Shown here: positions 18,290 to 38,973 of the stretch, piece by piece
How the letters are laid out: every line of letters starts with the position of its first letter
How positions within the stretch are numbered: position 1 is the first letter of the stretch
IMG/VR virus record: IMGVR_UViG_3300043640_000178
Span: 1-41,517 of that record
DNA from: a virus
DNA: 41,517 nucleotides
Direction: 5' to 3' (one strand)
Notes under the pieces: model-generated
Database searches by the model: none
What the model was told of the DNA's origin: nothing
The model's input: the letters and a program-made list of their open reading frames with translations, nothing else
Program-made: the position numbers and the translations under genes

Positions 18290-18958
18290 TCAGGAGATGG
18301 AGTCCCAGCGGGTGACCTCGTAGCGGCCGAAGCCCTGCGACCGGGAAGCGCCGATGCCGTTCTGCTCGCCGCATAGCCAGATCGCGGCCCACTCTTTGGT
18401 CGTGAAGTCGTGGTCGGAGATGACGGTGAAGTCGAACTTCGCGTCCTCCACGAACTCCTCGTACTGAATGCCCGTGCCCCGGAAGGTGTGGACGAACCGC
18501 TGTGCGATGCCGGTCGCCTCGTTCACGCCGAGGTGCAACCGGTCCTCAACCACGAAGACGTGCTCGGCGAGGTAGGACAGCAGACCCTTGTTGGTCTTGC
18601 CCCAGCCGCGCGAGGTGAGCTTCCCGGCCGCCACCGCAACCGATGCGGCTTCCTTGAGCGCGGCCTTGAGTTGCCGGCCCTCGATGTACAGACCCAACTC
18701 GTCGCGCTTGAAACCGTTGAGGTGTTTGGTGTCGTTGACGATCTCGATGGCTTCCTGCGCGGTCGCCCCGCGCTCCACCATCACCTCGGCGACCTTGTCC
18801 TGAATCTGCTTTTCCGTGGTGTCGCCCAGCTTCGTTTTCAGCCAGCCCTCGGCGACCTTCGGATCGGTCGGAACGCCGCCCGCGATGACGCTGACGCTGA
18901 GCTGGCCGGAGAACTGGTACGGGTAGGACTCGGCGCGGAACTTCTCAAACACACTCAC
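18290..18958 (-). CDS. Phage protein with Cas7/RAMP-like motifs
   Basis: This protein has 222 residues, starting at GTG 18958, five bases after AAGGAG. Two stretches recall the RAMP superfamily (Cas7, Csm3, Cmr4). LYIEGRQLKAALKEAA (90-105) is like the YIPGSSLKGALR element, and GIGASRSQGFGRYEV (201-215) is like the glycine-rich RNA-contact loop near the C-terminus. Between them lie strand-rich segments (RLHLG, FRGTG, FDFTVI). The protein is well formed with no frameshift. It sits directly downstream, on the same strand, of an 825-base C-rich repeat tract. RAMP membership is my inference from motif order; RNA binding would follow from it. It may alternatively be an unrelated phage family. Confidence 0.6.
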   Translation of the reverse strand: MSVFEKFRAESYPYQFSGQLSVSVIAGGVPTDPKVAEGWLKTKLGDTTEKQIQDKVAEVMVERGATAQEAIEIVNDTKHLNGFKRDELGLYIEGRQLKAALKEAASVAVAAGKLTSRGWGKTNKGLLSYLAEHVFVVEDRLHLGVNEATGIAQRFVHTFRGTGIQYEEFVEDAKFDFTVISDHDFTTKEWAAIWLCGEQNGIGASRSQGFGRYEVTRWDSIS

Positions 18959-19783
18959 TGGTACTCCTTGGCTAGTCGGACCGGGGTGGGGCAGGGATGG
19001 GTATGAGTGGGCAGGCTGGGGATGTCGAGATGGGGTGACCTGGCCTGTGGCGGGACGCGCAGGAACGGGCAGGGTTGGGTTGGGCAGTCGCGGGGGCCGG
19101 GGTGGGGTGACCTGAGTTGGCGAGGGAAGTCGGATCTGGGAAGGCCCGGGGTGGGAGGGGAAGCGCGGGGCCGGGGAGGGCTGGGTAGTCGGTAAGGGGC
19201 GGGAGGCAAAGGACTTGGGTCGGGCAGGGTGGTCGAACTGGGGCGGGAAGCGGTGCGGTGACCGGGGCTGGGAAGTCGGATTGACTAGGCAGACGGCGGG
19301 GCTGGGTTGGCGGGGGGGTAGTCGGGATGAGGCGACACGGGAAGGGACGGGACGCGTGGGGTTGGGCAGTCGGGACGGCGGGGGGAGGAACGTAGAAGGA
19401 CTGGGCTGGGAAGTCGGACGTGGCGAGGGTCGGATTGGCCTGGCATGGTCCGGTTCGTCGGCAGGGCCGGGGTGGGGAGAGAAGGTCCGGGGCGGGTAGT
19501 CGGGCAGGCGAGGGCTGATGGGGGCAGGAATGCGGTGGCATGGGCAGTCGGGTTGGGACGGCTGCGGGTCGGGGCGGGCTGGGCGGGGAAGTCGTATGGG
19601 CTTGGGAAGGAGAGAGGTGGCTTGGGCAGTCGAAGTGGGGAGAAGTTGGCGTGGGCCACGCTGGGAAGTCGACAAGGGGCGGATTGCGGCGCGGTGCGGC
19701 GGGGAGGCGTGGGTAGGGAAGTCGGGGAGGCAGGGGCTGGGGCGGCGGGCGGAGAAGTGGGCTGGGGAGGGATGGGTTGTCAT
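18959..19783 (-). repeat. C-rich degenerate repeat array (14 copies of CGACTNCCC)
   Basis: This 825-base stretch holds no convincing gene. Read on the minus strand it is dominated by C with little G or A. The nonamer CGACTNCCC occurs 13 times, plus CGACTAGCC next to the downstream ribosome site. The variable base is T, G or A, and copies are often followed by AGCCC or AACCC. In plus coordinates the copies lie near 18974, 19086, 19128, 19187, 19273, 19319, 19367, 19411, 19498, 19546, 19590, 19627, 19667 and 19719, mostly 37-59 apart, with two gaps near 87 and one of 112. Copies fall in all three frames. Two minus frames are open only because stop codons are rare in such sequence. Confidence 0.85.
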
Positions 19784-19786
19784 TCG

Positions 19787-20323
19787 CTACTCGCCGGTGA
19801 TTGACCGCCACATGGCGGCGAGCTTGTCTTCGTCGAAGTGGTCGGAAACCTTGCCCTTGCCGACCTTCTTGGCCAGCGCCCGCAGGAACGCTTCCCGCAT
19901 CGCGTTGTCTCGCACACGGGCGGCGAAGTCGTCGGCGGCATAGGTCAGTTCCGCCTTGCGCATCTCGCGCAGTGGAACCTTGGTGCCGTCCTCGGTCAGG
20001 TACATCTCGCCGAGGAAGTTGGATCGCATCGGCTCTGGGTCGCCGTTCTCCAACGCTTCCCGTGCCTCGCGGAACACCGACCGACGTGCGGTCAACCGGT
20101 TGTGGGTTCGGACCGAGCAGTCCCGCAGGTTGATGGCGTGGCGCAGGAAGTTGACGGCCTGCTCCTGCAACCACCCGTTGAGCAACTCCGGATCGGTCGC
20201 CCGCAGCTTCGCCACGATGTGTTCCGCGACGATCGGCGCGGCGTAGGAACCCTCGCCCGTCTCGGCGTCGATCACGGCGCGCATGTCGCTCGCGTAGTTC
20301 CGCTCCACCAACACGTCGGTCAC
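19787..20323 (-). CDS. Conserved-looking phage protein (178 aa)
   Basis: The GTG at 20323 has an excellent AAAGGAG site seven bases upstream. An in-frame ATG at 20479, overlapping the previous stop (ATGA), would add a 52-residue Ala/Pro/Arg-rich extension that looks non-globular. The protein is mostly helical (ATDPELLNGWLQEQAVNFLR, RAEREALENGD-like charged helices) with no known catalytic motif. It is the gene immediately before the C-rich repeat array. Function is unknown. Confidence 0.65.
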   Translation of the reverse strand: MTDVLVERNYASDMRAVIDAETGEGSYAAPIVAEHIVAKLRATDPELLNGWLQEQAVNFLRHAINLRDCSVRTHNRLTARRSVFREAREALENGDPEPMRSNFLGEMYLTEDGTKVPLREMRKAELTYAADDFAARVRDNAMREAFLRALAKKVGKGKVSDHFDEDKLAAMWRSITGE

Positions 20324-24049: not shown

Positions 24050-24538
24050 CTATTCGCCGGGCGGAGGCTCCAACTGGAACCGATCGCCGGGCCACGCCTC
24101 CACCTCTACGTACGCCAGCGGCGGCCGTACCGGCCCCTCAACGTCCGCGTCCGAAGTCTCCGACGGCTCCCCGGCAACGATCTCGAAGAGGGCCAGCATC
24201 GGCGCACCCAGCGGGATTTCATACCGCCGTGCCTCTTCTGCGGTGGCTGGCCTGGCCCGGATCGCATATCGCCGCGGATGTTCGGGGCCAGGCACTGGCA
24301 CGGTGGCCATGGGTCGAGTCTCTCTCACCCGGGACCGCGCGCCGAAGGTCTTCACGACCAGGCCTTCGCGGACCAGGACGTCTATCGCGGAGTGCATCGT
24401 GGACTTGCTGACGCCGTACTCGACCCGCAGGTCGCCCTCGGCAGGCAGGCCTTGCCTGTAGCCGCCCGCCAGGATGCGTTTGCGCAGGTCATCAGCGATA
24501 CCTCGGTATCCGAGGTGCGGCGATGACGGGTCGGGCAC
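24050..24538 (-). CDS. GntR-family transcriptional regulator
   Basis: This protein has 162 residues. The winged helix covers about 10-75: YRGIADDLRKRILAGGY, LPAEGDLRVEYGVSKSTMHS, AIDVLVREGLVVKTFGARSR. The C-terminal part (80-162) is a shortened effector-binding-like segment with RYEIPLGAPMLALFEI. The GTG start is six bases after a TAGGTT -10, without a ribosome site, implying a leaderless transcript. A palindrome (24545-24562) overlaps that -10, so it probably represses itself. AICE and plasmid elements commonly carry such Kor-like GntR regulators of transfer genes. Confidence 0.85.
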   Translation of the reverse strand: MPDPSSPHLGYRGIADDLRKRILAGGYRQGLPAEGDLRVEYGVSKSTMHSAIDVLVREGLVVKTFGARSRVRETRPMATVPVPGPEHPRRYAIRARPATAEEARRYEIPLGAPMLALFEIVAGEPSETSDADVEGPVRPPLAYVEVEAWPGDRFQLEPPPGE

Positions 24539-35323: not shown

Positions 35324-37477
35324 ATGGCCAAAAAGGGTCTACTGAGGCGCGCCGACTACAGCTTCGGGCCCGGCACGAGCCCGGCTGCCGGGGCTGCCCT
35401 GTCGGCCCTGACGACGCTGACCGTCACCGCGCCGGTGCACGAGTTCACGCACGTCAACTCCGTCTGGGGACTGGTTGGCGGCGTCGCGATAGGCGGCGCC
35501 GCGGTGGTCGCGGTGGGCGCATCGAAACGGTTGCGCCTGAATGAGGGCGCCGTCATGTGCTACCGGGCGGCGTGCTGGCTTAGCGCCGGCATGTGGTCGT
35601 GGTGGGAGCTCGCCCACGATCCCTGGTCGTGGAACGGCGTCATGGCGCTCGGTGTCGGGGCTGCCGCCGCCGCGGTGGCCGGGAGCGTGCTGCGCCACGC
35701 CGAGGACAAGGAAATCGGCGCTGGCATGGATGAGGCCGCCGCGCACCTCGCGGCGCTGGCCGGCGCCGAGCCGACACCGGACCAGATCGCCGCCCGGTGG
35801 GTGGCTCTGATCCTGAAGGTGACCCGGATTGCCGTCACCATCCCGGCGGTGAAGCGGTGGGCGGACAAGACCGGCTACACGCTGGAGTGTGAGCTCCCGC
35901 TGGACGGCACCACCATCGACGACATCAAGCCGCACGAGCAGGCGCTAGCGACCGCTGCCGGACTCAAGCCCGGCTGCAACGTGATGGTCACGGATGCAGG
36001 TGCGGATGCGCCGCGCAACGTGGTGCTCCTGCGGGTCAACCAAGTCAACGAGATGGCCAAGGACCAAGCGATCCCGCGAGACTGGGAGCCGCGGACCATT
36101 AACAATCCCATCCCGGTCGGAGTCGTCGCGGACGGCACCGTAGCCACCGCGGACCTGCGCGAGAACTGCATGGTGTTGGCCGGCCAGTCCGGGTCCGGCA
36201 AGTCGACCGCGCTCAACGTCGTCATCAAGGGCGCCGTGCAGTGTGTCGACAACGTCGTCGTGATGATCGACACCAAGGGTGGAGGCGAGGCCGCGCGGCG
36301 CTGGGTTCGCGCTTGGTATGAGGACCGGGCGCCATCCCGGCGGCCAGCCTTGCTCCTGGTGGCCAATACGAATGAACTCGCCATATTGATGATGGCCGGT
36401 CTGATCAACATCGTTGACGGCCGGCCCAAGTACTACGCGGAGCTGATGCACCAACAGGGCGCCGACAAGATCATGCCAACTCCGGCGCTGCCGCAGATCA
36501 CGCTGATCATCGACGAGTTCAAGTCGCTCCCGGAGATCGTCAAGGACGGAGTCGAGTACATCGCGGACAAGGGCCGCTCGGCCGCGGTGCGTGAGGTGGT
36601 CTCCACCTTGGACCCGACAGCTGCCGGCATACCCCGCGTGATCATCAAGCAGTGTCGCGAAAGGTACGCGGTGCGCGTCTCGGACGAAGCCGACCTGCAC
36701 CACCTGTTCGACGGCGGCGGCGCCTGGTTGCAGCGATTCGACGTGCGCTCGATGACGCACCCGGGCATGGGGTTTCTGAGCAGTAACGCACAGACCCCCT
36801 ACCAGATCAAGGGCTGGTGGCAGGACATGGAGGTGATCGACGAGACCTCCATCGCGCTGTCCGCGTCTACACCGAATCTGGACCAGCCCAGCATCGACAT
36901 GTTCGACACCGTGCGGCTACCCGGCAAGTACGGCGAGGAAGACACCGTGATCACCGGACTGTGGAAGAAGTTCTGGCCCATGACTCTCGAAGCGATGTTT
37001 CCTGACAAGCCCAGCGGCACGCCGAGCCTGCCCGCTGCCCCAACCGCCTCGCCCGCGGCGCAGACCCAACCGGCACCCGACATGGGCACCTCGCTGGCCA
37101 CCCTCGGCGATGCGATGAGCGACATGGACGCCGCACGCAAGCGGATGGAAGCGGCCTGCGCCGCGGCCGACGCCGAGCAGGACCAGGGCGCCGAAGAGCC
37201 CACCGGCCCTGTCGATAGCCGGCCCGGCATCGAGCCAAACCCTGAGTTCGATGCGCTGGTCAACGGCGGTGATGTCATGGTGACCCAGCCACGGGACCGG
37301 TACCGCGACCTGCTGCGCGAGTTGGGTACGACCGGCGCCACGGACATCTCATCCCGGATGCGGCGGGACGGCTACAAGACCAGCCGGCAGACCGTGCAGG
37401 GCTGGTTGGCCGAAGACGAAGCAACCGGCAAGGTGATCCGAACCGACGAAGGGTGGAAGTGGATCGGCCCCCTGTGA
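35324..37477 (+). CDS. FtsK/SpoIIIE-type DNA translocase (TraB-like)
   Basis: This protein has 717 residues. Walker A is GQSGSGKST (about 287-295) and Walker B is ITLIIDEF (about 391-398), with VVMIDTKGGGE between them. Membrane-like segments lie in the first 130 residues (SVWGLVGGVAIGGAAVVAVG, GVMALGVGAAAAAVAGSVLR). The C-terminal 60 residues (DRYRDLLRELGTTGATDISS, RMRRDGYKTSRQTVQGWL) form a winged helix, as in FtsK gamma and TraB, which read short repeats. Such proteins move double-stranded plasmid DNA between actinomycete cells. It overlaps the YdjM-like gene by one base. Confidence 0.9.
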   Translation: MAKKGLLRRADYSFGPGTSPAAGAALSALTTLTVTAPVHEFTHVNSVWGLVGGVAIGGAAVVAVGASKRLRLNEGAVMCYRAACWLSAGMWSWWELAHDPWSWNGVMALGVGAAAAAVAGSVLRHAEDKEIGAGMDEAAAHLAALAGAEPTPDQIAARWVALILKVTRIAVTIPAVKRWADKTGYTLECELPLDGTTIDDIKPHEQALATAAGLKPGCNVMVTDAGADAPRNVVLLRVNQVNEMAKDQAIPRDWEPRTINNPIPVGVVADGTVATADLRENCMVLAGQSGSGKSTALNVVIKGAVQCVDNVVVMIDTKGGGEAARRWVRAWYEDRAPSRRPALLLVANTNELAILMMAGLINIVDGRPKYYAELMHQQGADKIMPTPALPQITLIIDEFKSLPEIVKDGVEYIADKGRSAAVREVVSTLDPTAAGIPRVIIKQCRERYAVRVSDEADLHHLFDGGGAWLQRFDVRSMTHPGMGFLSSNAQTPYQIKGWWQDMEVIDETSIALSASTPNLDQPSIDMFDTVRLPGKYGEEDTVITGLWKKFWPMTLEAMFPDKPSGTPSLPAAPTASPAAQTQPAPDMGTSLATLGDAMSDMDAARKRMEAACAAADAEQDQGAEEPTGPVDSRPGIEPNPEFDALVNGGDVMVTQPRDRYRDLLRELGTTGATDISSRMRRDGYKTSRQTVQGWLAEDEATGKVIRTDEGWKWIGPL

Positions 37478-38292: not shown

Positions 38293-38532
38293 TCACTCGA
38301 TAGGAGGACTCGCGGCGACATAGACACCCTTGCCTTGACGACCTTCGACCCATCCCGTGGTTCTCAAAATGAGCATCGCCGAATCAATGACTTGGCCACT
38401 GACGCTGTATTGCGCTATCAGCTCACGTTTGATGGGCAGCTTACCGCCGGGTTTGAGCAGGCCAGAGCGTATCTGGTCGCGAATCGCATCGACGACGATC
38501 TGATAGGCAGGCTTATATGGCGTTGGAGACAT
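38293..38532 (-). CDS. Small GntR-type winged-helix regulator
   Basis: This protein has 79 residues: essentially only the DNA-binding domain (PAYQIVVDAIRDQIRSGLLK PGGKLPIKRELIAQYSVSGQ split over the wing, ending GRQGKGVYVA). Such single-domain GntR proteins are common on actinomycete elements. The start at 38532 has GGGAG nearby; upstream in-frame ATGs would add an unlikely extension. It may bind the palindrome in its own upstream region or the AT-rich operators at 24.8 kb. Confidence 0.8.
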   Translation of the reverse strand: MSPTPYKPAYQIVVDAIRDQIRSGLLKPGGKLPIKRELIAQYSVSGQVIDSAMLILRTTGWVEGRQGKGVYVAASPPIE

Positions 38533-38973
38533 GACGGCACTCCCGGGTTGGCCCGCCAAGTAGATCACCGCCTTTCCGCAGGTTGCAAGGGTTTCTAGAC
38601 TTGCCATGGTTTCCATGGCATCATCCCACACGGGACGCCCTTCCGGGTTGGCGCCAGGAACTGCGCCCCACCCCCGGTCCACCCCCCGAGGTGGATCAAG
38701 GCGTCCGGCCCGGCGGTGGCTTCCAACGGCTGCCTACCGCCGGGCCGGCGCCGAATATCACGGTCCGCAGCACCATCGCGGGCTTGGCGGCGGCCACGGA
38801 GGCATCAAGCCTCCAAGAAGATCCGAGCGCCCGACCCGGGCGTCTTCCGGCCGTCGCATCAGCGCAGCGCCGCAACGACTGGCGGCGCCGGAATAGCCGC
38901 TGCCGACCACGGTGCCAGGGAGTCCGTGGCCGGTGGTAGACCCCCGGCGCCGCCTCTCCGGAGGGAGGCCGCA
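38533..38973. promoter_or_regulatory. Regulatory gap with operator and hairpins
   Basis: No convincing gene is visible in these 441 bases. TGCCATGG-TTT-CCATGGCA (38602-38620) is a perfect palindrome with eight-base arms. GGCCCGGCGGT/ACCGCCGGGCC (38707-38746) is an 11-base stem, and GGAGGC/GCCTCC near 38800 is a smaller one. The gap carries the promoters of the GntR gene and of the rightward operon starting at 38974; an attenuator-like leader is plausible. Confidence 0.55.

Follow-up and report, generated by a model that had tools for sequence, protein, structure and literature searches.

Viral Interference Programmable Repeat (VIPR) is a phage system described in a 2026 preprint, e.g. for Escherichia phage SUSP1, in which a phage RAMP and an accessory gene are accompanied by guide RNAs composed of YNNGG pentanucleotides (PMC13142463). 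These guides bind double-stranded DNA by their NN pairs, with one target base, usually the wobble base, being skipped, and are directed against other phages and other VIPR genes (PMC13142463). The main text of the preprint gives the scaffold as GGY 'or a related consensus', seven types have been published, and the guide RNAs of the SUSP1 and P. fulva clades are each described as carrying a structured 3' tail (PMC13142463).

The window analysed here, a stretch of 41,517 nucleotides of viral DNA (IMG/VR record IMGVR_UViG_3300043640_000178), carries a locus which is similar to VIPR in that a single phage-borne RAMP and a small accessory gene occur together with a noncoding array flanking the RAMP gene, in that the array consists of tandem pentanucleotides with hypervariable NN whose decoding skips one base, at the wobble position, and in that the decoded targets lie in other phages and in RAMP genes. 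The five-base period, the tags, the conservation of the tract, the composition of the module, the Cas7 fold of the modelled protein and the in-frame decoded matches are established in the following, and the tract is very probably an array of VIPR-type guide RNAs that would be coated by the RAMP and would silence genes of rival phages. The initial annotation knew of no described element like it; the VIPR preprint describes one (PMC13142463). Its suggestion of a store of short RNA units came close to this explanation. The features of the locus are:

18290..18958, minus strand: RAMP gene (vipr-like), 222 aa, with predicted Cas7/Csm3 fold, GIGASRSQGFG loop and GTG start
18837..18859, plus strand: putative target within the RAMP gene (K-V-A-E-G-W-L-K codons), matching 16/16 bases of a guide of the related phage L029
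18959..19783, minus strand: putative C-rich guide array of about 17 tag-delimited units with the consensus tag CCC-GA-C-TN-CCC followed by n x (NN-YYC)
19787..20323, minus strand: 178-aa vap-like accessory gene, conserved beside the array and the RAMP gene

In 18959-19783, C accounts for 54% and G for 16% of the minus-strand bases. The motif CGACTNCCC is found 13 times in this tract compared to a mean of 0.15 and a maximum of 3 copies in 1000 dinucleotide shuffles, and it is absent from both strands of the rest of the window. Both the C bias and the motif count of the initial annotation were thereby confirmed, including the shuffle test, and the final degenerate copy, CGACTAGCC, does merge with the AAGGAG ahead of the GTG of the RAMP gene. 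Tandem Repeats Finder detected no long array in the tract because the units vary. The autocorrelation of C in the tract was 0.253 at lag 5 (z 7.0), 0.181 at lag 10 (z 5.2) and 0.123 at lag 15 (z 3.7), compared to a mean of 0.001 at lag 5 for the other 825-base pieces of the window, and the signal at lag 3 was negative. Pooled over 14 tracts, the distances from tag to tag follow 8+5n: among 108 intervals of 20-70 nt, 51 are 3 modulo 5, 32 are 4 modulo 5 and only 2 are 1 modulo 5. This spacing and the C period of exactly 5 identify the unit as CNNYC, and the decayed unit of about 44 bases proposed initially is therefore abandoned.

Training a 13-state model on these tracts yielded the tag C-G-A-C-T/A-N-C-C and the unit C-N-N-Y-C, in which the first position is C with a frequency of 0.98 and the second and third are near-uniform with entropies of 1.96 and 1.98 bits, respectively. 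The tract can thus be read as CCC-GA-C-TN-CCC-NN-CCC-NN..., i.e. as variable pairs on a C scaffold which is reset by each tag. The guide units of the window are 38-62 nt long and packed head to tail with 8-nt CGAC-containing tags between them, and about half of them parse with an irregularity. A search of the tract against Rfam gave no match, and the tract RNA folds less than shuffled sequences (z +2.9).

Forty relatives went into the AlphaFold model of the RAMP protein (pLDDT 80), which resembles Csm3 and type VII Cas7 chains at Z scores of about 11 (11.3); on the basis of this model, the protein has a Cas7/Csm3 fold. In the alignment, its C-terminal GIGASRSQGFG corresponds to the glycine-rich loop of RAMP proteins. 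No family was found for the protein in Pfam and PHROGs. Comparison by hhalign with the profile of the SUSP1-clade Vipr proteins gave a weak match in which 126 columns were collinear (E 0.0004, probability 36%). The 178-aa protein had no match to any family, Pfam included, and no hhalign similarity to the SUSP1 accessory protein, and its gene is conserved with the RAMP gene in 31 loci; the module therefore consists of accessory gene, array and RAMP gene.

Relatives of the RAMP gene were found in IMG/VR (13 close ones and about 40 in total) and in one named phage record, Microcystis phage Mae-JY09, and none were found in the genome-contig and plasmid collections searched. In the search of related phages suggested in the initial annotation, relatives whose flanks are long enough were seen to have a C-periodic tract of this kind; in total, about 40 related phages have it next to the RAMP gene or elsewhere on the contig that bears the gene. 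Among the 27 loci tested, this tract lies at most 1.7 kb from the RAMP gene in nearly all cases, and in most of them its score exceeds the 95th percentile of a 4-kb null, with lower values in L028, L037 and L052. Where the CGAC detector picked up no array, the 5-nt C period is nonetheless present beside the RAMP gene, weakly so in L037. The tract is thus a real element that is conserved in position, specific to one strand and associated with a RAMP-like gene, as had been assumed. In most relatives the array is directly upstream of the RAMP gene; it is downstream in Mae-JY09, L043, L053, L068 and L072, divergent in L060, and kilobases away on a few contigs. Since the array can be upstream, downstream or apart, it is not a cis leader, and the proposal of a leader for the RAMP gene is not supported.

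Several observations on these contigs may be added. Mae-JY09 (L020, PP395641.1) is a high-GC record labelled as a cyanobacterial phage that carries the same RAMP gene and downstream array. For the contig pairs L007/L019 and L030/L098, two contigs are apparently circles whose break falls within the array; several other contigs end in an array, and the tract seems to be hard to assemble. In L032 (6700-7050), tRNA-like sequences break up a C-periodic tract that lies downstream of its RAMP gene.

The guides were decoded according to the VIPR-type rule, in which the NN pairs are read with a one-base skip in the target. For a wide search against the whole of IMG/VR, three regular guides out of the approximately 17 in the window were used. 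These three, followed by three further regular guides, are:

19672..19724, minus strand: HK97 capsid guide TT-TA-AC-TC-GC-AC-GC-AA-GC-TT, antisense decode (K/N)AFAVADVYK, 18/18 over 9/10 pairs
19503..19550, minus strand: ImmA/IrrE guide TG-AT-AC-AT-TG-CC-AG-TC-TG, antisense decode HELGH(I/M)VMH, 18/18
19460..19502, minus strand: terminase small subunit guide TA-GC-GG-TT-TC-AC-GG-TG, antisense decode QPVENPAY, 16/16 in L220 and 14/16 in L122
19325..19372, minus strand: regular guide TG-AA-CA-GT-GT-TT-GT-GC-AT
19236..19278, minus strand: regular guide TT-AG-CG-AC-AC-TT-GC-AG
19134..19191, minus strand: regular guide TA-AG-TC-GG-CG-TT-CT-AC-GG-TT-AG

All three matches of the guide at 19672-19724, for which the search pattern comprised 9 of the 10 pairs, the tenth not matching, were in the AFAVADVYK motif of HK97 major capsid proteins (Phage_capsid), with two distinct sequences among them, and the nearest named relatives of these capsids are from mycobacteriophages. 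A two-mismatch match of the same guide to the terminase of L188 was dropped in favour of the exact capsid matches. Exact matches over all 18 bases were found 15 times for the guide at 19503-19550, and 12 of them lie in HELGH(I/M)VMH of ImmA/IrrE peptidases; HELGH is widespread, so these matches do not name the actual rival. For the guide at 19460-19502, one of four matches was a clear phage small terminase (L220), and L122 encodes a member of the same family. In these capsid, ImmA/IrrE and small terminase genes, the window guides match in frame, and the skipped base falls on the codon wobble. For a control guide with reordered pairs, 13 matches were obtained in IMG/VR, with no family shared among them.

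The same rule was applied to 44 arrays and 2.28 Mb of unique phage DNA. In the strict local test, a skip of one base gave 7 hits from 3 guides compared to none for skips of 0 and 2, while 60 permutations of the NN order gave at most 3 hits, and 2 of the 60 reached 3 guides; judged by the number of guides, the result of this permutation test is only moderate. Looser mismatch limits yielded 41 hits compared to 19-35 for permuted guides, i.e. little excess. In the NN-phase control, the other phases match C-rich tracts because they are C-rich themselves, and this control is thus uninformative. The three guides with hits in the strict test come from relatives and match conserved motifs in frame, namely V/ARGPHGLGK in the large subunit of terminase (18/18 in L027 and 17/18 in L018), NSADYGVPQ in a cytosine C5 methylase (19/20 in L130) and, as listed above, KVAEGWL(K) in the RAMP itself, encoded in the window. 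The hits of the guides L021 108 in L198 and L028 270 in L075 were attributed to chance, as the target frames contain stops. The window guide at 19503-19550 recurs in L021 and L029, slightly altered but still reading HELGH, and the NN decode is the same in these homologous guides. The last guide of the L029 array also matches the RAMP gene of L029 itself, so it may repress its own phage's gene as well as those of rivals.

In the mechanism that we propose, the array would be cotranscribed from the minus strand together with the genes for the 178-aa protein and the RAMP, and processed into guides. Each of the approximately 17 units would comprise a CGAC tag and repeated pentanucleotides, with YYC as the scaffold and NN as the information, and would be coated by the Cas7-fold RAMP with one subunit per 5 nt bound to YYC. 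Recognition of double-stranded DNA would be by the successive NN pairs, between which one base of the target, usually the codon wobble, would be passed over. By analogy with the experiments reported for VIPR (PMC13142463), the complex would then bind and repress competitor genes, among them those for capsid, terminase, ImmA/IrrE regulators and other RAMPs, by blocking their transcription. In this way, the phage probably uses its guides to silence competitors.

Some of these properties could also be expected if the RAMP polymerised on the 5-nt C pattern of an RNA scaffold or sponge with a structural, autoregulatory or decoy function (e.g. towards Rho or a host CRISPR complex), with the NN holding no target information. 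The Cas7-fold protein, the 5-nt period and the weak folding of the C-rich RNA relative to shuffles would all be in agreement with such a function. We nevertheless regard it as unlikely, since the NN strings decode in frame to conserved phage motifs, the homologous guides of the window, L021 and L029 retain their decode, and the array is sometimes away from the gene that it would autoregulate. A Rho-utilisation site or transcription leader setting the expression of the RAMP gene is considerably less probable still. It would suit a C-rich, G-poor and weakly folded tract that usually lies between two codirected genes, but it leaves the 5-nt period, the 8+5n tags and the decoded targets unexplained, and it is at odds with the loci in which the array is downstream or divergent; Rho binding, raised in the initial annotation, is thus not supported as the main role.

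We assign a similarly slight probability to a site acting at the DNA level, such as iterons, an origin, or a partition or packaging site, for which the repetition of a short motif in the early region of a phage and the contigs ending in or near the tract could be quoted. Against it, and thus also against the iteron or partition site considered initially, are the strong strand asymmetry and a period of 5 nt rather than about 10.5 bp; in addition, the partner is by its fold an RNA-binding Cas7-type protein, and the contig breaks fit a repeat that is hard to assemble. Least credible of all is a coding role, in which the tract would extend the RAMP by a low-complexity, proline-rich sequence. A 497-aa frame (18290-19783, minus strand) is indeed open from one end of the array through the RAMP gene, and automatic annotation may thus add such an extension falsely. 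However, C-rich sequence is free of stops in several frames, the spacing proceeds in steps of 5 rather than 3 with a negative lag-3 signal, and the RAMP genes of the relatives start at the same internal GTG or ATG preceded by a ribosome site.

The guide array differs from SUSP1 VIPR, as described in the main text of the preprint, in its C-rich YYC scaffold in place of GGY, as well as in its accessory protein, which lacks detectable hhalign similarity, and in the remote kinship of its RAMP. Unlike in VIPR, about 17 guides are packed head to tail into 825 nt with 8-nt CGAC tags, and no conserved structured element that would represent a 3' tail on the guides was seen in the tract. In a positive control, this analysis plainly revealed the GGT/NN tracts at the published SUSP1 locus and GGC/NN tracts in its relatives LittleE and Trine. 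LittleE (L239) and Trine (L240) are Mycobacterium and Gordonia phages, respectively, so G-code systems occur in actinophages alongside the C-code. With its consensus of YYC/NN and CGAC tags instead of GGY/NN, the system would be a variant of VIPR that is possibly already among the seven types. More tentatively, and with a probability that we put somewhat below even, it would represent a distinct branch of VIPR that uses a C-code and occurs in actinobacterial-type phages, with at least 15 head-to-tail YYC/NN guides per phage, with targets mainly in essential virion genes (capsid and both terminase subunits) and in rival RAMP genes, and with the skipped base tuned to the codon wobble, so that a synonymous change would not allow escape. 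Such a branch may lie outside the seven published types.

The locus shares with Class 1 CRISPR-Cas systems (Csm3/Cas7 of types III and VII) the Cas7 fold, the glycine-rich loop and the succession of tags and variable segments. It differs from them by the absence of long identical repeats, by a period of 5 instead of 6 nt, by a gapped code and by unit lengths of 8+5n. Where CRISPR-Cas is defined by identical repeats, unique contiguous spacers and adaptation genes, we found short tags and 5-nt units, and no spacer acquisition or adaptation genes among the RAMP-conserved neighbours or the window ORFs scanned. RNA anti-CRISPRs (Racr) are noncoding phage repeats, sometimes beside solitary cas genes, which mimic the repeat of the host CRISPR; here, in contrast, many different guides form a long array, and targets in phages were decoded.

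These results provide independent support, drawn from the sequences of unrelated phages alone, for a gapped RNA-guided code that is thought to precede CRISPR, and suggest that the letter of the scaffold can change from G to C while the code and the skip rule persist. Such arrays would constitute a readable record of competition between phages, and a dense multi-guide array could serve for multiplexed gene silencing. Elsewhere in the window, we noted an FtsK/SpoIIIE-type gene and GntR regulators (35324-37477 on the plus strand, and 38293-38682 and 24050-24538 on the minus strand) as well as an integrase, an antirepressor, a methylase and a helicase, i.e. a mixed layout of phage and conjugative element.
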